A DNA stretch of 12,103 nucleotides from Muribaculaceae bacterium (GTDB taxonomy: Bacteria > Bacteroidota > Bacteroidia > Bacteroidales > Muribaculaceae): contig JAFZSS010000173.1 in NCBI GenBank assembly GCA_017619255.1, positions 1 through 12,103 on the forward strand. Direction: 5' to 3'. The notes beneath the pieces are model-generated. The model was given only the letters and a program-made list of their open reading frames with translations. It was not told the DNA's origin and searched no databases. Positions 1,348 through 11,697 of this stretch are shown here, one piece after another. The translations under genes were made by a program, and so were the position numbers. Each line of letters begins with the position of its first letter. Position 1 is the stretch's first letter.

Positions 1348-1445
1348 CAAGAATCCAAAAGATTTATTAACACTCCTGCCACTTTAACAAATTTAACCAA
1401 AAACCGGGAAGGGAGGAGAGAGTGAGAAGTGAGATAGCGGATGCC

Positions 1446-2118: not shown

Positions 2119-3300
2119 ATGACACGAGTCAACCCCCATTCATTTGTGCTTATGCGGCACCTGCTGCAGCTATTGCTTGTCATGGCCACGCTGACGGCCC
2201 AGGCACAGCAGTTTGAGCGTTATGCCCGCTATTACATCAACGAGCGGGACCTCGAGGACACCGTCGCTGTGCTGACGGCCCGCCAATGGGAGGTCCACAC
2301 AGGCAAGCACTCGATAACGCCGATGTCCAAGACCCTTCTCGACAAAAGCCAGGAGCATGTATGGACCGACGGCATCAACATCTACAGCTCCTGGTATGAC
2401 ACCGACGAGCAGGTGGTCTCCTTCATCATCCAACCCGATATCTATCCTGTTGAGGAATGTGACCAATACGCCCCCTTTACCGTGAGGAAAGGGCAAGTGT
2501 GGGCCAATAGCGTGAAACAGGGGACGCGCGTGACGACCGAACAGGTGGCGGGCCGCGTCATGCTGGTCATGCGCGATGCCCAGGGCAAGCCCTTCAAGAC
2601 CTTCTACCACCTCGACTATGACCACGAGTACCAGGGTGGCTTGTGGACACTGCTCTTGCCGCAGCTCTTCAATGGCAACTACACCACTCCCGCGGGCGAG
2701 AACGCCATATTCGGCCCCAGGCAGGAACACTACACCGGCTCGAAATACAGCCATGACCCAGGCGTCTTCAATGGCTACAGGTTCATCCCCGGCAAGCGCC
2801 AAATCAACATCCTCTACGGCAGCGGCAGGGTCAGCGGTGGAGACCCCAGCGACCCCAAGTGGGGCAAGATGCCCGGCGGCGGTGGCGCGGCAGCCATCAT
2901 GGGTCCCATGGAGTGGGTCATCACCCCCACCCTCGACGGCCTGCAAGCCAAAGTGCTGCATGACGAGCCGTTTGTGGAGCACATGCCCCCTATCGGCAAG
3001 AGCGGCGACACGGTCCAGCTTACCATGGTGCAGCAGCCCTTCAACGACCTGCCCGGCAAGTGGGCGTTTGCCTCGGTCTTCCCATTGACCCACAAGATGC
3101 TCGAACTCTATCCCAAAGAGGTGCTCACGCTGATGCGCGGCGAAATCTACGCCCGCCATGGCGACACCTTCAAGGACCCCGCCACGCAGCGCTATTTCAA
3201 CGCTCAGCCCTGGTACATAAAAACGGGCAAGCCCGTCAAGCTCACCGATGTGGAGCGCTTCAACTACCAGCTCATCAAGCAAGTCGAGTTCACCAGGTGA
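2119..3300 (+). CDS. Secreted YARHG domain-containing protein
   Basis: This 393-residue exported protein has unknown function. The N-terminus MRHLLQLLLVMATLTAQAQ is a signal peptide; the ATG at 2119 gives an 11-residue extension and the ATG at 2152 gives the cleanest signal, so either may be used. The open frame extends upstream to 2035, but that part precedes and includes the promoter. The C-terminal 64 residues are a YARHG domain: MRGEIYARHGDTFKDPATQRYF with the YARHG motif at 344-348, then QPWY. This small extracellular module is found in bacterial envelope proteins. The middle (about 60-320) is beta-rich with no domain I recognise; it holds a GPRQEHYTGSKYSHDPGVFNGY stretch and a glycine-rich KMPGGGGAAAIMG loop. 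It has no lipoprotein cysteine and no C-terminal sorting signal, so a periplasmic location is likely. It is a single gene, convergent with the amylase. Confidence 0.85.
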   Translation: MTRVNPHSFVLMRHLLQLLLVMATLTAQAQQFERYARYYINERDLEDTVAVLTARQWEVHTGKHSITPMSKTLLDKSQEHVWTDGINIYSSWYDTDEQVVSFIIQPDIYPVEECDQYAPFTVRKGQVWANSVKQGTRVTTEQVAGRVMLVMRDAQGKPFKTFYHLDYDHEYQGGLWTLLLPQLFNGNYTTPAGENAIFGPRQEHYTGSKYSHDPGVFNGYRFIPGKRQINILYGSGRVSGGDPSDPKWGKMPGGGGAAAIMGPMEWVITPTLDGLQAKVLHDEPFVEHMPPIGKSGDTVQLTMVQQPFNDLPGKWAFASVFPLTHKMLELYPKEVLTLMRGEIYARHGDTFKDPATQRYFNAQPWYIKTGKPVKLTDVERFNYQLIKQVEFTR

Positions 3301-3322: not shown

Positions 3323-3346
3323 GTAGGGCCTCGCCTCGGCGTGGCC
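3323..3346 (+). repeat. REP-like palindrome, copy 1
   Basis: GTAG (3323-3326) is directly followed by an imperfect hairpin: GGCC, T, CGCC, a 2-nt TC loop, GGCG, T, GGCC (3327-3346), with one T/T mismatch. It differs from copies 2 and 3 only in the loop. It begins 22 nt after the YARHG stop codon. Confidence 0.7.
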
Positions 3347-3371
3347 GTTTCCTTGAGCATTCACCACCGCT

Positions 3372-3395
3372 GTAGGGCCTCGCCTTGGCGTGGCC
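3372..3395 (+). repeat. REP-like palindrome, copy 2
   Basis: Same structure as copy 1 with a TT loop: GTAG at 3372-3375 and the hairpin at 3376-3395. It is in direct orientation 49 bp from copy 1. Further GC-rich inverted repeats follow (GCCCG/CGGGC around 3418-3432) before the terminator. Confidence 0.7.
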
Positions 3396-3447
3396 GCACG
3401 AGGCCGCAGAGGGCATGGCCCGCCCTCACGGGCGTCTTCCAAACATA

Positions 3448-3479
3448 AAAACGGGCGGCCCTTGCGGGTCGCCCGTTTT
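3448..3479. terminator. Bidirectional rho-independent terminator between the YARHG gene and the amylase
   Basis: AAAACGGGCG, G, CCC / GGG, T, CGCCCGTTTT forms a 14-bp stem (one G-T pair) with the 4-nt loop TTGC at 3462-3465. The A and T tracts on either side let it end both convergent transcripts. Homologous hairpins recur at 9478 and 11636. Confidence 0.88.
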
Positions 3480-3487
3480 ATTGTCAA

Positions 3488-3509
3488 CTAAAAGCTAAAG
3501 CCTAACTCA
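3488..3509. repeat. Heptad CTAANNN array at the amylase stop codon
   Basis: CTAA at 3488, 3495 and 3502 has exact 7-nt spacing (units CTAAAAG, CTAAAGC, CTAACTC). Read on the amylase strand these give TAG in all three frames directly after the TGA at 3509-3507, followed by the terminator hairpin. Confidence 0.75.
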
Positions 3510-6500
3510 CCAAGTGCCTGTCAGCAGATAACTGATCAGAGTCGTCACATCCGAGATGTCGATTTCGTTGTCCTGGCAACAGTCGGCATTCGCCATGTTC
3601 ATGCCCGTGGAATCGCCATAGAGCAAATAATCTATCAGCAGCGTCGCATCCGAGATATCAATCGAGCCGCTGCCATTCACATCACCGCGCAAAACGGGGC
3701 TCCACTTGTCAACGACCAGAACACGGTTGGTGAGGTAGAATGTCAGATTATACTTACCCGTGGCAATCTTGAAGGCATTAGTGCCGGGGACAACGCTCAA
3801 CTGCGTACCCAGCAGGGCGTCGGTGATGAGGAGGTTCCCAGTGGTGGCGCCCATGCGGTCGGCGGCAATCTCATCCCATGTGCTGCCCAGGGCAGTCGAG
3901 AAGCTGAAGTAGCTGTAGCCACCGTAGGGGTCAACGAAGTTGATGGTGGCGGTATATTTCTCACCGTTGGTGGTCGTCATCTGATAGCCATTGCTGGGAG
4001 ACCAACCTGTGCTGTTGATGTTGCCCAGCACATACACATGCTCATAGTTGTTGGTACCGGCATATTTCTCGGTCACATCGAGGTAGGTGTCGGCAGCAGC
4101 ATAGTTGAAGCCCGTCAGGTCGCTGTTGGGATAGAGGAAGTAAGTGTCACGCGTCACATCGATGACATTGGTCTGATTCTCGAAGCCGCTCTCGCCATTG
4201 TTGAAAATCATCCATGCCTCATCGGCATCCACATGCAGGCGGCGCCACTCGAGGTCGTTGATGGTCACCTTGTCCAGACTGCTGATGGCCTTGCCGGGCC
4301 ACATGTCACCGGTTTCATTGCCATTGGAGCTCCATGCCCAAATGTTGGCATTGTTCATCGTGGACCTCACATAGATGTTGATGCCCGTAGAGGCCGTTTT
4401 GGTGATGGTGTAGATGTAGTTCTCCACATTTTCTACCTGGTCGCCGTTGAGCACACCCACCTTGAGCGTGGTGTTCTCGGTGAAAGTGAAAGCAGTCGAT
4501 GAGGTAATGGTCGGGCTGCTGGCAGTGGGCACGCTGCCGTTGGTCGTGTAGACGAGCGTCGTGCCGCTCTCATTGGGCGCCACGGTGAGGCTCACGCTGC
4601 CCACATAGTTGCCGGCAGGCTTGCTCACCACGGGATAGCCCACGATGGTGCCGTCCTTGGCCACATGACGCCAGTCGATGCCGTAAGTGATGTACAACGC
4701 GTAATTTTCGCCCACCTGTACAGGCTCAAAGCCATAGGGGCAGCCATTGGCGACAGCGCCGCCCAGCTGCAGGTACAGGTTGCCGCGTGTGCCCGCGGTC
4801 TCCAGGATGTAACCGCCGTTGCTCTCCTCTTGGGTGACGATACCGCTCTGGTTGTGGACACCGGCGGCACGGCGAGCCTTGATGCAGTTGTTCATCTCGT
4901 CGGCATAGACATTGTAGTGCTTGTAGAAGACACACGGCGTGCCGGGCATCGTCAGGATGAAGGCATTGGCTGCCATCACATTGGTCTTCAAGCAGTCATA
5001 GTTGCTGCCTTGACCCGTGTCGTGGTTGTCGACAAAGGTAACAGCATAGCGCTGGTAATCAGCATCAGCCGCCAAGCCCTTGTCGTTCAAGGCGCTCCAA
5101 TTACCGCTACTAAAGGCGTTCTGCATCGGGTATTTCAGCGAGAAGTCAAATACGGCGGTCTGGATGCGGTCATTCTGCTTGGTCTCGTTCAGCCACCAGC
5201 GCAGCGTCTCGGGATTGCCGTCCCAGTACTCGCCCACCGAGAAGGCCGGCGTCGAAGCTGCATTGTACAGACCCACATAGTAGCCCGCATAACCCTTGCA
5301 CATGTCATAGCGGAAACCGTCATAACCCAACTCGTTGATGAGATACTTTTGATAGGTATTGACATTCTGCTGCACATTGGCGCTGGTATGGTCCAGGTCA
5401 CGGCTGCCGTCAAAGTTCTCGCCCTCGTCGGCAGCGCCCGTGGCAGCATAGCCTTGCGCCACACACTCGTCGGTGTTGCAGATGTCGGCCAGAGACCATG
5501 TCATGCTGTAGTTCAAGCCCGTCACAGGACCCGTGACGCTCTCGTTGGCAAAGTCCACCCAGCCGGTCTTGCCGCTCTTGTGGTTCAGCACCATGTCCAT
5601 CAGCACACTGGTGTTGTGGTTGTGGAAGGTGCTGATCATCTCGCGCAGCTGCGACTCGGTACCGAAGCAGGTGTTGTGCTTCAACCAGTAAACGGGCATG
5701 TAGCCCATGCTCTCGGCGCTGCCATAGGCATCGACGCTGCCCGAGTTAGGCACCCAGATCACATCGAAATACTGGCTCAGCTCTTGGGCCTTCTCGGTCA
5801 GCGTGGTCCAGCGCGTCGCATCGTAGCTGTCCCAGTAGAAGCCCTGCAGCATCACGCCGCCAAACATCGCGGGCCACCCCTTGCCGGTAACGGGACCGCC
5901 GCCGCTCTTGCGCGTGATGAGACAGGTGCGGTCTTCCACATTGACCGTCAACTCATAGGTGCCCTTAGGAATGCGGATAGCCACATCGACGCAATCACCG
6001 AACTCGTTCATCGGGATAGGCACACCGAGTGTCGCCGAGGTCACCCAGAAGTTGCCCTCGCTGATGGGTGTCAACCGATAGGGCGCTATGCCACTCCAGT
6101 CGTCGGTGCCGTTTCCCAGCTTGGAAGTGAAAGAGAAGTAGCTCACATTGGCATCCTCCTCATCCCAAATCCCGTTAAAAGTGACTTCGGCGGTGAACAG
6201 GTTGCCATCGGTGGTGTTCATTTCCACGCCCACACTGGGATCCCAGGCGTTACCCTCAGCCTCGCCGATGATGTAGAGGTGGCCGGTCACCGGATTCACG
6301 GGGGTGTCGTTACCGTTAATCCTGAAACGCTTGTTGATGGTGTCAAATTTGATGACATATTCCGAACCGTTGCCCGTAAAGCAATAAGCGCCCTCAGAGC
6401 TCCTCTGCGTCGTTATCCATGTGTTGGCGGTCACCGTCTCGCCATCGGTCAGCGGGCCATAACGGTAGTTGTTGTTGAAAGTGTCCCAATCGCCAGATGA

Positions 6501-6977: not shown

Positions 6978-7646
6978 ATGAAGAAGCTGGTGATTTTTGA
7001 CTTGGACGGCACGCTGCTCAACACCATCGAGGACTTGGGACAGGCCGCCAATTATGCGCTCGAGCGCAACGGCTTTGCCACCCACTCGATGGCAAGCTAC
7101 CCCTACTTTGTGGGCAACGGCGTGAGGCGACTGATGACGCGCGTGCTCCCCGAGGACGCCCGCGACGACGCAACAGTGGACCGCGTCCTCGGCGACTTCC
7201 TCGAGCACTATGACGAGCACTGTACCGACTTCACCAAGCACTACAGCGGCATGCCCGAACTGCTGCAGGACCTGCGCGACATGGGCGTGGCAACGGCCGT
7301 CGCCAGCAACAAGTACCAGAAAGCCGTTGACAAGATTATTCCGCACTTCTTCCCCGACATCAACTTCATCGCTGTCGAGGGGCACCGCGAGGGCGTGAAT
7401 GTCAAGCCCGACCCCAGCGTGATTTTTGCCATCCTCGCCAAGGCCGGCGTCGCCAAGGCCGACACCCTCTATGTGGGCGACAGCGGCGTGGACATGGAAA
7501 CCGCGCGCCGCGCGTGCATCGACTCGGTGGGCGTGACATGGGGGTTCCGCAACAAGAAGGAACTTGTCGAGTACCATGCCAATGTCATCGTCAACAACCC
7601 CGTCGAGATTCTCGATATCGTCGAGAACGGCATCTCCATCTCCTAA
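6978..7646 (+). CDS. HAD-family hydrolase, phosphoglycolate phosphatase-like
   Basis: This 222-residue cytoplasmic phosphatase has all four HAD motifs: FDLDGT with nucleophile Asp8 and acid/base Asp10, AVASNK with Ser110, VKPDP with Lys143, and YVGDSGVDMETARRA with Asp168 and Asp172. A helical cap insert lies at about 15-90, which places it with the Gph/PGP subfamily; the length fits. The likely reaction is dephosphorylation of 2-phosphoglycolate from DNA repair, but related HAD enzymes act on pyrophosphate or sugar phosphates, so the substrate is uncertain. The start is the first ATG, directly at the MKKLVIFDLDGT motif. It leads a probable two-gene operon: the transporter follows 23 nt later, and the gap is almost entirely a heptad stop array. 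Confidence 0.92.
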   Translation: MKKLVIFDLDGTLLNTIEDLGQAANYALERNGFATHSMASYPYFVGNGVRRLMTRVLPEDARDDATVDRVLGDFLEHYDEHCTDFTKHYSGMPELLQDLRDMGVATAVASNKYQKAVDKIIPHFFPDINFIAVEGHREGVNVKPDPSVIFAILAKAGVAKADTLYVGDSGVDMETARRACIDSVGVTWGFRNKKELVEYHANVIVNNPVEILDIVENGISIS

Positions 7647-7669
7647 AATCTAAAGTCTAAAGTCTAGAA
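7643..7669. repeat. Heptad CTAANNN array filling the gph-transporter gap
   Basis: The gph stop TAA (7644), then TAA at 7651, TAA at 7658 and TAG at 7665 are spaced exactly 7 nt, one CTAAAAT and two CTAAAGT units ending in CTAGAA. Stops therefore fall in all three plus frames, and CTAA/CTAG gives them on the minus strand too. The transporter ATG starts at 7670. Confidence 0.8.
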
Positions 7670-9355
7670 ATGAACTGGTTCACTGAATTATGGCTTGGTA
7701 ACGGGGTTGCGCACACCATCATCGTTTACGCGATTGTCATCGTCATCGGCGTGCTCCTCGGCAAGGTGAAATTCTTCGGCATTTCGCTCGGAGCGACCTT
7801 TGTGCTCTTCTGCGGCATCCTCATCGGCCACCTGGGCGTGACCGTCGACGCCGCCACCCTCAAGTTCATTCAGGAGTTCGGCCTCATCCTGTTCATCTTC
7901 TCCATCGGTTTGCAGGTGGGTCCCAGTTTCTTCTCGTCGTTCAAGCAAGAGGGCATCCAGCTCAATGGCGTCGCCATGCTCATCGTGGCGCTTAACGTTG
8001 TTGTCGCTCTCGCCATCTACTTTATCGCGGGCAACATCTCGATGACCGACCTCGTGGGCGTCATGAGCGGTGCCGTGACCAACACTCCCGGCTTGGGTGC
8101 TGCCCAGCAAACCCTCATCGAAACCGCGCCCGACATTGCCACCGACCTCAACGAGTCGATGTCCCTAGGCTATGCCGCCGCCTATCCCCTGGGCGTCGTG
8201 GGCGTCATCCTGTCGATGGTGCTGCTCAAGGCCCTGTTCAAGGTCAATGTCGACAAGGAAGCCGAGGAAATCGAGCGCGAGAAGGAAGACAGCCAGCTCA
8301 AGCCCCACGTCATCACCTATCAAGTGACCAACAAGCTCATCTATGACATCACCGTGACGCGCCTGCACGCCATCATCGACCACAACTTCACCATCTCACG
8401 CCTCAAGCGTGTCGACGGCAGCGTCGAGATTCCCCAGGGCGAGACCATCATCCACCAGGACGACGTGCTGCGCATCGTCATGAGCGCCAACGACCAAGAT
8501 ATCTTTGATGCCATCATCGGACCACACGTGGACTTTGACTGGCAGCTCGAGACCTCGCCCAAGGGCATCGTGAGCAAGCGAATCATCATCACCAACAGCG
8601 AGCTCAATGGCCGTAAGATAGGCTCCATCCGTCTCCACGAGGGCTACAAGGTCAATGTCACACGCGTCTATCGTGCCGGCGTCGAGCTGCTCGCCAGCCC
8701 CAACCTGTCGCTGCAGGTGGGCGACCGCCTCACCGTCGTGGGACGTGAAGAGGACTTAGACCGTCTGGGCAAGCGCATGGGCAACTCCTACAAGCGCCTG
8801 GAGCACCCCAACCTGTTCACCATGTTCATCGGCATTGTCCTGGGTATCATCGTCGGCTCCATCCCCATCATGCTCCCCGGCATGTCGGTACCCATGAAAC
8901 TGGGTCTCGCCGGAGGACCGCTCATCGTCGCCATCTTCATTGGCCGTTACGGCTACAAGGCGCGCCTGGTCACCTATACCAGCACCGCCGCCAGCCTTAT
9001 GTTGCGTGAGCTGGGCTTATGCCTCTTCCTCGCCTCGGTAGGCATCGCGGCAGGCGGCAAGTTCGTTTCCACCATCCTGAGCGCCAATGGCGCGTTGTGG
9101 GTACTCTACGGCTTCCTCATCACCATCATCCCGCTCATCGTAGCGGTCATCGTCGCCCGTGGCAAGCTGCATCTCAACTACTGCACCATCATGGGTCTCG
9201 TAGCCGGTGCCACCACCGACCCGCCCGCCCTGGGCTATGCCAACAATACTGCCGGCAACGACGCGCCCGCTGTGGCCTATGCCACTGTCTATCCCTTGAC
9301 GATGTTCATGCGCGTGCTCATTGCCGAGCTCATCATCCTCTTCACCTTCGCTTAA
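7670..9355 (+). CDS. AspT/YidE/YbjL-family transporter with two RCK_C (TrkA_C) domains
   Basis: This 561-residue inner-membrane transporter belongs to the aspartate:alanine exchanger family (TC 2.A.81). It has the family's internal duplication: membrane domain 1 (about 15-190) and membrane domain 2 (about 380-560), each with about five helices. They share mirrored signatures: GAVTNTPGLGAAQQT at 134 with AAYPLGVVG at 170, and GATTDPPALGYANNT at 513 with TVYPLTMFM at 539. A cytoplasmic insert holds two RCK_C-like domains (about 212-285 and 295-372), preceded by a charged linker of Glu/Lys residues at 194-210. The length matches YidE-type proteins. Such proteins may exchange dicarboxylates or amino acids, as AspT does for aspartate and alanine; the substrate here cannot be told. 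The upstream phosphatase is probably co-transcribed, with no clear functional link. Confidence 0.92.
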   Translation: MNWFTELWLGNGVAHTIIVYAIVIVIGVLLGKVKFFGISLGATFVLFCGILIGHLGVTVDAATLKFIQEFGLILFIFSIGLQVGPSFFSSFKQEGIQLNGVAMLIVALNVVVALAIYFIAGNISMTDLVGVMSGAVTNTPGLGAAQQTLIETAPDIATDLNESMSLGYAAAYPLGVVGVILSMVLLKALFKVNVDKEAEEIEREKEDSQLKPHVITYQVTNKLIYDITVTRLHAIIDHNFTISRLKRVDGSVEIPQGETIIHQDDVLRIVMSANDQDIFDAIIGPHVDFDWQLETSPKGIVSKRIIITNSELNGRKIGSIRLHEGYKVNVTRVYRAGVELLASPNLSLQVGDRLTVVGREEDLDRLGKRMGNSYKRLEHPNLFTMFIGIVLGIIVGSIPIMLPGMSVPMKLGLAGGPLIVAIFIGRYGYKARLVTYTSTAASLMLRELGLCLFLASVGIAAGGKFVSTILSANGALWVLYGFLITIIPLIVAVIVARGKLHLNYCTIMGLVAGATTDPPALGYANNTAGNDAPAVAYATVYPLTMFMRVLIAELIILFTFA

Positions 9356-9435: not shown

Positions 9436-9477
9436 ATTGACCAGATAAGTTTTCCACGACACTAATAAAGCCAAATA

Positions 9478-9510
9478 AAAACAGGCGGCCCTGTGCGGGT
9501 CGCCCGTTTT
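9478..9510. terminator. Bidirectional terminator between the transporter and the adhesin-like gene
   Basis: A stem of 14 positions (one A·C mismatch, one G-T pair) with a 5-nt loop, flanked by A and T tracts. It is a variant of the hairpin at 3448-3479 and can end both convergent genes. Confidence 0.85.
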
Positions 9511-9518
9511 ATTGTCAG

Positions 9519-9539
9519 CTAATAGCTAAAGCCTAATTA
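9519..9539. repeat. Heptad CTAANNN array at the adhesin-like gene stop
   Basis: CTAA at 9519, 9526 and 9533 is spaced exactly 7 nt (CTAATAG, CTAAAGC, CTAATTA). It gives TAG in all three frames of the minus strand just after the real TAA at 9539-9537. Confidence 0.75.
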
Positions 9540-11426
9540 CTTGATCACCTTAGCGGCGCTGGTGGTGCCGTCGGTGTAGGTGGTAACGACGATCGTCATG
9601 CCGTTAGCCTCCTGCATCTCCTGACCAGCTACATTGAAGTAGCGTACGCTCGATACGGTCTTGCCACCATTGATCTCGTTAACAGCGGTCTGCGGGCCCT
9701 GAGCAACGAGCAGGTAGTACTGACCATCCTGGAGCTGCAGACCCCAAGTGTAGGTGTAAGTTGAGGGAACATAGAACATGTTCTCACCCTCGAATACGGG
9801 ATTGAGGACGGTCTGGGCCTCGTCACCCATCTGAGGCAGATACATGTCGGTCTCAGCACCCATCTGTACACCGTCTACCATGAAGTAGAAGGGAACATTC
9901 TCGTTCCAGGGATAGTGGTGCAGGGTGAGCATCAAGAACCAGTTGTTCTCACCTTCGGGATCATCGTTCATGGCGTACCATACCTCGTCGCCATCCTGAT
10001 TGATGAGCACGAGCCACTTGCCGGTCATGTGGGGATCCTCGGGCTCGGGAGGAGTTACCTGACCAGCCTCACCGGTGGTGAACAGAACAACCTCGGTCCA
10101 GTTGCCAGTGGTCTCGTTAGCGCCGATAGCCTGTACCTGTACCTCATAGGTGGTCTCGGCCTCCAGGCCCTCGAGCAGATACTCGTTGCCCTCGATGCCC
10201 TCAACTACAGTCCACTCGCCGGGCTCGTTGCCGGGAACAGTGTAGGTTACATCGTCAACGAAGATGCGGAACTGGTCGTAGCAGTCATAGTGACGGAAGG
10301 CGAAGTGACCATTGCCACGCAGCTCAGCGGGAATCTCAAAGGTGTACTCCTCAAAGGCTTGTCCAGGCTCGATGTTGTCTTCAATCAGCACGAAGGCCTC
10401 GGGATCGAAGTTGTCAAAGTCGATGTCACCTTCGATAGCATAAACAGCAATCTTGTCAATGTAGTAGCCAGAGTAGTTAGCAGTCCAGAACTTCAGCGTG
10501 CCACCCAGCTTAACCTCGGGCGAGAATACCCAGTTGTCGGGGCTCAGTGCGCCGCTATAGTAGCTGTCAGATACCAAGCAGTAAGAACCGTCTATGCCTT
10601 GAGCATCAAGGCGCCAGGGATAACCGTCACCGTCAGCGTCATAGGTCATCCAACCCTCAAGCGACTCGTCGCTGTCGAAGTCCCAGAAGAGGTCCTGAGC
10701 CATGTCGGGATCGTAAACCCTGTAGCGCAGGTTGAAGGCGGGATCGTGGTCGTTGGTCCAAGCTACATTAGCGTTGGTACCGTCAACAGTGACATTTAAG
10801 CCCTCAACAGCAACGGGAGCGGTCGGGTCAACGATCTCCAGCTCAACCTGGTCGTTGTAGCCACCGAAGCTTACGTAGAAAATGTAGGTTGCGCCATCAG
10901 CGAACTCGAAGTCGTCATAGCGGCCGGGGCAAGTACCATTGCTCGAAGCAATCCAAACCCTGTCACCAGGAGTCGGGTTGGTGATGCACCAGTCATAGAC
11001 ACCGGCGGGAATCAGGATGGTGACTGCATCGTCACATACCATGTTCTGAGTGGTGAGAGAACCATCGGCATTCTCCGGGATCTTGTACTCAAACTCGGCA
11101 TAGGTTGCTGCATCAGCATCGCCGCTGGTGGTCAGACCACCGGTCTCGGGGATGATGGTGCCAAAAGCGGTAGCATCGGCATCAAGCAGCATCTGGTAGC
11201 CAGAGCCGTCACCCCATACATCGTCGGCAGCCAGGGTTACGCTGGCATAGCCTGCGGGAACCTCGTCGCGGTTAGCAACAACCTGTACATGCTGGCGTTG
11301 CAAGGTAAAGCTGGGAACAGCAGCCCTGCGGTAGTTAGCCATAGCAGCGGCCTCATCAGCCTTAGTCTGAGCCATCATCGGCAGTGCCAATGCGGCTGTC
11401 AACAGAACGAATAATAATTTCTTCAT
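9537..11426 (-). CDS. Secreted gingipain/hemagglutinin-like adhesin with T9SS-type C-terminus
   Basis: This 629-residue exported protein carries adhesin modules known from Porphyromonas gingivalis gingipains and HagA but no protease domain. The signal peptide is residues 1-20 (MKKLLFVLLTAALALPMMAQ). Residues about 60-200 match the DUF2436 gingipain domain: WGDGSGYQMLLDADATAFGT, FEYKIPENADGSLTTQNMV, and IPAGVYDWCITNPTPG with RYDDFEF. An Fn3-like strand set follows (about 203-240), then a cleaved-adhesin domain at about 245-398 (FWDFDSDESLEGW, LSPDNWVFSPEV, FRHYDCYDQFRIFVDDV). A second Fn3 lies at about 400-452 and an uncharacterised beta region at 466-578. Residues 590-629 (VRYFNVAGQEMQEANGMTI to AKVIK) resemble the type A C-terminal signal of the type IX secretion system. 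Surface attachment and binding of host or matrix proteins are inferred from the family. The gene has its own promoter and is monocistronic. Confidence 0.88.
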   Translation of the reverse strand: MKKLLFVLLTAALALPMMAQTKADEAAAMANYRRAAVPSFTLQRQHVQVVANRDEVPAGYASVTLAADDVWGDGSGYQMLLDADATAFGTIIPETGGLTTSGDADAATYAEFEYKIPENADGSLTTQNMVCDDAVTILIPAGVYDWCITNPTPGDRVWIASSNGTCPGRYDDFEFADGATYIFYVSFGGYNDQVELEIVDPTAPVAVEGLNVTVDGTNANVAWTNDHDPAFNLRYRVYDPDMAQDLFWDFDSDESLEGWMTYDADGDGYPWRLDAQGIDGSYCLVSDSYYSGALSPDNWVFSPEVKLGGTLKFWTANYSGYYIDKIAVYAIEGDIDFDNFDPEAFVLIEDNIEPGQAFEEYTFEIPAELRGNGHFAFRHYDCYDQFRIFVDDVTYTVPGNEPGEWTVVEGIEGNEYLLEGLEAETTYEVQVQAIGANETTGNWTEVVLFTTGEAGQVTPPEPEDPHMTGKWLVLINQDGDEVWYAMNDDPEGENNWFLMLTLHHYPWNENVPFYFMVDGVQMGAETDMYLPQMGDEAQTVLNPVFEGENMFYVPSTYTYTWGLQLQDGQYYLLVAQGPQTAVNEINGGKTVSSVRYFNVAGQEMQEANGMTIVVTTYTDGTTSAAKVIK

Positions 11427-11589: not shown

Positions 11590-11613
11590 GTAGGGCCTCG
11601 CCTTGGCGTGGCC
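11590..11613 (+). repeat. REP-like palindrome, copy 3
   Basis: GTAG at 11590-11593, then the GGCC, T, CGCC / GGCG, T, GGCC hairpin with a TT loop (11594-11613). It is identical to copy 2 and in the same orientation. The terminator module starts 22 nt further on, after a CGCC/GGCG inverted repeat (11613-11625). Confidence 0.7.
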
Positions 11614-11635
11614 GCCCTTCAGGCGTCTGACACAA

Positions 11636-11668
11636 AAAACAGGCGGCCCTGTGCGGGTCGCCCGTTTT
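11636..11668 (-). terminator. Terminator of the right-edge secreted protein gene
   Basis: Same hairpin as 9478-9510, including the A·C mismatch and 5-nt loop. On the minus strand it follows the stop codon by 26 nt and ends in a T tract. Here it separates two genes in the same orientation, so it keeps them as separate transcripts. Confidence 0.85.
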
Positions 11669-11676
11669 ATGGTCAG

Positions 11677-11697
11677 CTAATAGCTAAAGCCTAATCA
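11677..11697. repeat. Heptad CTAANNN array at the right-edge gene stop
   Basis: CTAA at 11677, 11684 and 11691 has 7-nt spacing, giving three-frame TAG stops after the TGA at 11697-11695. It is part of the 153-bp repeat, so it is not independent of the array at 9519. Confidence 0.75.

Follow-up and report, generated by a model that had tools for sequence, protein, structure and literature searches.

Previous work on bacterial heptamer repeats has connected them with quadruplexes, with the regulation of translation or with slippage of the polymerase. In work on STRR (Calothrix) and on long simple sequence repeats (LSSR; Mrazek 2007), heptanucleotide repeats are reportedly over-represented in prokaryotes and polymerase slippage is said to have been proposed; we know of no anchor or polarity rule for STRR or LSSR. 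Contiguous 7-bp repeats with variable bases are also found in the omega/parS heptads (WATCACW) of pSM19035. These resemble the arrays described here in form, but they serve in plasmid partition and their ligand is known.

The closest described systems are intergenic heptamers of two kinds. According to Rehm 2015 (PMC4692102), the G-rich heptamers GGGAATC and GGGGA(C/T)T of Xanthomonas and Nostoc are mostly intergenic, lie mostly between aligned ORFs and are under-represented between divergent ones. The G-rich strand is on the coding side after stops and on the non-coding side before starts, and some arrays lie over stops. Convergent inverted pairs number 70 in Xcc and 75 in Xac, the number of units varies, and no function is assigned to the repeats (PMC4692102). 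Intergenic arrays of a second heptamer, TAACTGA, also present in five Bacteroidetes, are described in MacGregor 2015 (PMC4679880). They have stops on the forward strand only, and between two Cyanothece strains their indels are mostly in 7-nt increments.

The sequence studied here, the window, is a stretch of 12,103 nt from a Muribaculaceae bacterium (assembly GCA_017619255.1, contig JAFZSS010000173.1). A preliminary description reported ladders of CTAA at 7-nt steps after or at gene stops in it, and knew of no described element of this kind. Such elements have in fact been described, as both papers report intergenic heptamer arrays and the former also the placement at gene ends seen here (PMC4692102, PMC4679880). 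With the Xanthomonas and Nostoc heptamers the arrays share the 7-nt unit, the intergenic bias, polarity at gene ends, inverted pairs and length variation by whole units. They differ in having 39 consensus units, mostly with a CT(A/G)(A/G) anchor, in a Bacteroidota genus, and in a core sequence, GCGGATGCC, in part of the elements. They also resemble the TAACTGA arrays as intergenic heptamers with indels of 7-nt increments between relatives. TAACTGA differs in being one fixed unit that, in its main genome, lies in most cases immediately before a start, and the 169 direct sets in that genome, with one indirect repeat, speak against general head-to-head pairing there (PMC4679880). A literature search, with subscription journals mostly outside its coverage, found no account of the CTAA anchor, of the GCGGATGCC core or of a genus-wide survey in Bacteroidota.

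Heptad arrays of the window

The pattern CTAAN3CTAAN3CTAA has five matches in the window, exactly where the preliminary description had placed them, and none in any of 200 dinucleotide shuffles (Table 1). Every one of the five 18-nt arrays has a stop in all six frames, so the observation that three CTAA units close six frames also holds. Five of the seven stops of window ORFs taken as genes touch an array, and those ending at 3300 and 9355 are free of array contact. The HAD-hydrolase array (7643-7660, with CTAG at 7664) occupies the spacer as far as the ATG that follows at 7670. Pfam identifies the seven proteins scanned as an outer-membrane barrel protein, RuvC, a YARHG-domain protein, an alpha-amylase with dockerin, a HAD hydrolase, an Asp-Al_Ex/TrkA_C transporter and a DUF2436/cleaved-adhesin protein. 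An Rfam scan of the window at gathering scores found no family.

Table 1. Positions of heptad arrays and adjoining features in the window.
Feature	Positions	Strand	Remarks
Heptad array CTAACTC CTAATTC CTAA	1451..1468	-	directly 3′ of ruvC stop 1469-1471
Core GCGGATGCC	1437..1445	+	adjoins ruvC array
Putative weak opposing arm AGTGAGA AGTGAGA	1414..1436	.	read from the sequence; under the detection threshold used
Heptad array	3488..3505	-	3′ of amylase stop (3507-3509)
Terminator-like hairpin, module copy 1	3448..3479	-	amylase end; z -3.15 for 3440-3512
Heptad array	7643..7667	+	contains HAD-hydrolase stop TAA 7644-7646
Heptad array	9519..9536	-	at stop of cleaved-adhesin-domain gene (9537-9539)
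Terminator-like hairpin, module copy 2	9477..9510	-	z -3.47 for 9470-9543
Heptad array	11677..11694	-	at stop of right-edge gene (11695-11697)
Terminator-like hairpin, module copy 3	11636..11669	-	by alignment

The amylase, adhesin and right-edge arrays belong to one module of terminator-like hairpin plus array, with a mean column identity of 92% over 71 columns. Thus the window has three independent arrays. The proposal of several independent origins is upheld; of the further view that only the last two arrays are copies, their likeness stands, and the amylase array is a third copy. The hairpin of the module, found by folding in two copies and by alignment in the other, is no part of the ruvC or phosphatase arrays.

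A palindromic REP-like repeat, TAGGGCCTCGCCTTGGCGTGGCCG preceded by G, is present in three copies in the window (3324-3347, 3373-3396 and 11591-11614) and also in spacers of a relative (genome G009, locus L160).

Occurrence in the genome, genus and phylum

In its own genome the pattern has 31 forward and 31 reverse matches, with overlapping ones counted apart, and the reversed control pattern has none on either strand. Matches are found in 46 of the 61 genomes searched (the own genome, 36 of the genus and 24 of the order). The 30 loci fetched by the pattern from the own genome contain 25 distinct arrays, none of them inside a called ORF. For 18 of the 25 the distance to a called stop is at most 10 nt, for 22 it is at most 30 nt, and three have a start within 10 nt; it should be noted that the ORF calls, made with a simple codon model of our own, blur gene ends, most of all in this fragmented genome (coding fraction 0.425).

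Stretches were sampled from 38 named relative loci, from 20 contigs of the own genome together with the window, and from four array-rich genomes with ten stretches each, and self-match was scored at each lag from 4 to 16. The 38 relatives are metagenome-assembled genomes whose titles give Bacteroidales, Prevotellaceae, Muribaculaceae or Porphyromonadaceae, and several titles mention goat, sheep, roe deer or water buffalo. Because a transporter gene served to select the relatives, and high pattern counts the four genomes, the array frequencies are not genus averages.

In the six sets, lag 7 gave 131 intergenic arrays and five coding ones. Lag 9 gave 23 intergenic arrays, and the remaining lags at most eight, with the exception of 14, a harmonic of 7. 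The two control sets, from genus genomes poor in arrays (G012 and G084), had no lag-7 arrays, and none were found in the stretches taken from three of eight other-family genomes (G205, G345 and G325). Per base, arrays are most frequent in spacers whose flanking genes run in the same direction (99 in 107.9 kb), with 15 in 40.3 kb of convergent and 11 in 53.8 kb of divergent spacers. The strong intergenic bias of the period-7 arrays, with few in divergent spacers, matches the class of intergenic heptameric repeats. GGG or CCC is found in only two of 133 genus consensus units and in none of the five window arrays. The arrays are therefore not heptamer repeats of the G-quadruplex kind, which have four runs of at least three G.

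The 23 period-9 intergenic arrays are from the same genus stretches, and a TCTAGAATA-like run in locus L157 may be one of them.

Placement at stops and starts

Of 125 arrays, 55 are within 10 nt of a stop, where random placement within the same spacer would give 32.9, and 37 are within 10 nt of a start, where 31.2 are expected. The reported proximity to stops is therefore supported. In convergent spacers, nine of 15 arrays are near a stop (2.8 expected), and in divergent spacers four of 11 are near a start (1.1 expected). With the 39 ORF-overlapping arrays removed, the excess is equal at both gene ends: the 86 arrays left include 21 near stops (13.0 expected) and 20 near starts (13.1 expected). 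A called stop is overlapped in 34 array-gene pairs, in 24 of them by more than 3 nt, and a start in five. Thus an array can enter the end of a gene and become its stop, and rarely lies across a start.

All six frames are closed by 71% of the arrays, compared with 10% of spacer windows taken at random. Such closure is little less frequent near starts (34/52) than near stops (54/75), and in the arrays near stops the three sense frames are all closed in 65 of 75 and the antisense ones in 56. The consensus units of the genus are rich in stops, which are carried by 127 of 133 on the ACT strand (62.0 expected with shuffled letters) and by 116 of 133 on the AGT strand (72.0 expected). In other Bacteroidota families, 20 arrays from five genomes have stops in seven and 13 on these strands (6.6 and 11.3 expected), and five of the 20 have no stop on either strand.

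Turnover of units and constancy of the anchor

In the spacer between the hydrolase and transporter genes, an array is detectable in 17 of 39 species and undetected in 22. The arrays of this spacer fall under 12 consensus labels, some of them one base apart and two at threshold. With 'none' included as a label, the tree has 16 changes, the least possible being 12, and 27 of 200 shuffles have as few. Five pairs of relatives were aligned, three of which have no array or have spacers too different to compare. In the other two the length differs by whole units: L037 has one heptad (7 nt) more than L035, with a separate 5-nt indel at the end of the array, and L049 has two heptads (14 nt) more than L065; the transporter genes are 92% and 95% identical, respectively. 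Neighbouring units are also more alike than in shuffled order (40 arrays, combined p 1.3e-4). The comparison of orthologous loci proposed in the preliminary description thus gives differences of exactly 7 and 14 nt, which agree with the microsatellite-like reading offered there.

The four anchor positions vary less. CTAA is steadier than the NNN positions in 73 CTAA arrays, and the opposite is found in three. Slippage predicts change at all positions, and thus slippage alone is not enough. The anchor is also steadier at more than 100 nt from any stop, in 15 arrays, with one array showing the opposite. An A to G change at the anchor keeps the stop on the CTAA strand and was used as a test of stop preservation; of the changes at A's, 17 of 32 in the anchor and 52 of 98 in NNN are of this kind, an odds ratio of 1.00.

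Within 30 nt of a stop, however, anchor variability is about 2.8 times lower than elsewhere (14 of 928 anchor cells changed in 46 arrays near stops, against 36 of 856 in 34 other arrays; array-level permutation p 0.008, or 0.006 when scaled by NNN). The NNN cells are alike in both groups (132 of 696 and 128 of 642 changed). In arrays of three to five units the gap is small, with 10 of 468 anchor cells changed near stops and 10 of 316 elsewhere. The lower variability near stops points to some constraint linked to stops. CTAA is kept wherever arrays lie, and near gene ends such a constraint may act in addition.

Polarity and core of the elements

Neighbouring arrays are paired head to head, with AGT/TTAG on the left and ACT/CTAA on the right, in 19 of 23 cases; the other four are in line, two in each direction, and the converse order is absent. 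In a search of genus genomes, the head-to-head arrangement was found in 57 of 101 (1,174 overlapping matches) and the converse in nine (22 matches). In the phylum the corresponding figures are 92 and 13 of 296 genomes, and in at least four of the 13 (G125, G188, G240 and G377) the units contain both ACT and AGT. Several phylum genomes also match the control pattern with the string reversed, and thus ACT is not the sole heptad word there. Of the 125 arrays, 88 face outward from the gene end closest to them and 37 inward. Set against the conserved palindromic unit or terminal inverted repeats of REP, BIME and MITE elements, the two arms of an element are inverted to each other, yet often consist of different units, and a shared core is confined to part of the elements.

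The core GCGGATGCC is exact in 17 of 58 distinct head-to-head elements and has one mismatch in four more, where about 0.2 are expected in shuffled centres; 32 of the 58 elements had been fetched by the pattern itself. Beside CTA heptads the core is found in one of 247 order genomes, that of the window, in a sample that holds no other genome of the genus. So far it is known from this genus alone, in part of the elements, and the word is also found in ORFs and away from heptads.

Away from heptads, GCGGATGCC is present at L151:3614, at L164:558 and 609, and at L158:2484, where it precedes spacer repeats that are AATTCGTATAATTCG-like or AATTAG-like. In two other genomes (G250:C8:176537-176597 and G294:C12:371766-371825) the head-to-head arms have mixed units and are near-perfect inverted repeats of each other, unlike the listed elements of the window's own genus.

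Discussion

The ladders are probably the arms of a dispersed non-coding heptamer-repeat element, a Bacteroidota counterpart of the repeats of Xanthomonas, Nostoc and Beggiatoaceae. They are real and non-random, and the best reading of the CTAA arrays is that of a variant of intergenic heptamer repeats rather than primarily a backup of termination; the functional label given in the preliminary description is partly right at best. In such an element, slippage or unequal exchange would add or remove units, 7 nt at a time. ORFs would be cleared of arrays, since steps of 7 nt shift the frame and most of the units carry stops. Contact with stops would arise in two ways: a tight spacer begins at the stop, and an array that enters the 3′ end of a gene would itself supply the stop ('stop capture'). 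The stop codons would then be for the most part incidental, perhaps with a further constraint in cases where the array serves as the stop. The reading does not extend to the constancy of CTAA beside a variable NNN or to the polarity; a propagation mechanism or a bound protein would account for either. Counting against the heptamer element are the stop-linked constraint on the anchor, which this reading does not predict, the larger excess at stops than at starts when overlapping arrays are included, the stop-rich units of the genus and the 37 inward arrays.

Several of these points bear on the function first proposed, a fail-safe ladder that would be kept since three 7-nt steps stop readthrough or frameshifted ribosomes in all frames. 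The steadier anchor near stops, the six-frame closure, the excess of arrays within 10 nt of stops, the closure of sense and of antisense frames by most arrays there and the stop-rich units all favor it. However, CTAA is steadier far from stops as well, stop-preserving A to G changes are no more frequent at the anchor, closure is nearly as common near starts, the start excess equals the stop excess once overlapping arrays are removed, and the arrays of other families have no stop enrichment. In addition, Ho and Hurst 2019 (PMC6764699) report no evidence that selection favors extra stops in eubacteria. Support for a backup that guards against readthrough or frameshifting is thus weak or absent, and we regard it as unlikely. 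An array bound by protein or RNA, with a repeat-binding protein that reads CT(A/G)(A/G) every 7 nt, would explain anchor and polarity, in the manner of the omega repressor, a ribbon-helix-helix protein that reads 7-bp heptads. The steady CTAA among variable NNN, the head-to-head polarity and the recurrent core agree with this, but orthologous spacers differ in their units and 22 of the 39 species have no detected array there; it is likewise unlikely.

Two further explanations start from the paired arms. If the arms formed an intercistronic RNA hairpin or a bidirectional terminator, their mutual inversion would be explained, and three of the window arrays do adjoin a terminator-like hairpin. 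Native elements, however, fold no better than those with the right arm swapped within the same genome (mean -18.5 and -20.9 kcal/mol, respectively, n 20, p 0.45), so arm-to-arm folding is not supported, and it is co-directional spacers that have the most arrays per base; this explanation is very unlikely. No matching account was found for Rho rut spacing in the literature search. Templated addition to the 3′ ends of broken spacers with subsequent end joining, similar to telomere fusion, predicts exactly the observed polarity, as a T/G-rich heptad strand on both 3′ ends would leave TTAG on the left and CTAA on the right. Telomeric repeats resemble the heptads in form, which counts in its favor. 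It is nevertheless highly improbable, as the arms of one element often differ in unit and a nine-base core recurs. Reverse-transcriptase genes (PF00078) are not associated with the elements among 101 genomes, many of them incomplete, as they are found in 27 of 57 genomes with pairs and in 16 of 44 without (p 0.31).

Within the joint reading as a heptamer-repeat element, a more specific form can be tentatively considered, although it is doubtful: a class of self-propagating non-coding elements across Bacteroidota, related in kind to the heptamers of Xanthomonas and Nostoc. Starting from a short core, a dedicated activity would build 7-nt arms that face outward. Candidates for this activity are a protein that reads heptads or a polymerase that uses CT(A/G)(A/G) for priming. 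Anchor and polarity would thus be fixed while the other bases drift.

In this Bacteroidota genus, placement and polarity are kept almost without G-runs, and thus the quadruplex is not the common cause of heptamer repeats. The anchor is constrained while the surrounding unit turns over, and this raises the testable question of which activity recognizes CT(A/G)(A/G) at a spacing of seven bases. In annotation, the C-terminus of a gene can be miscalled where an array supplies its stop.
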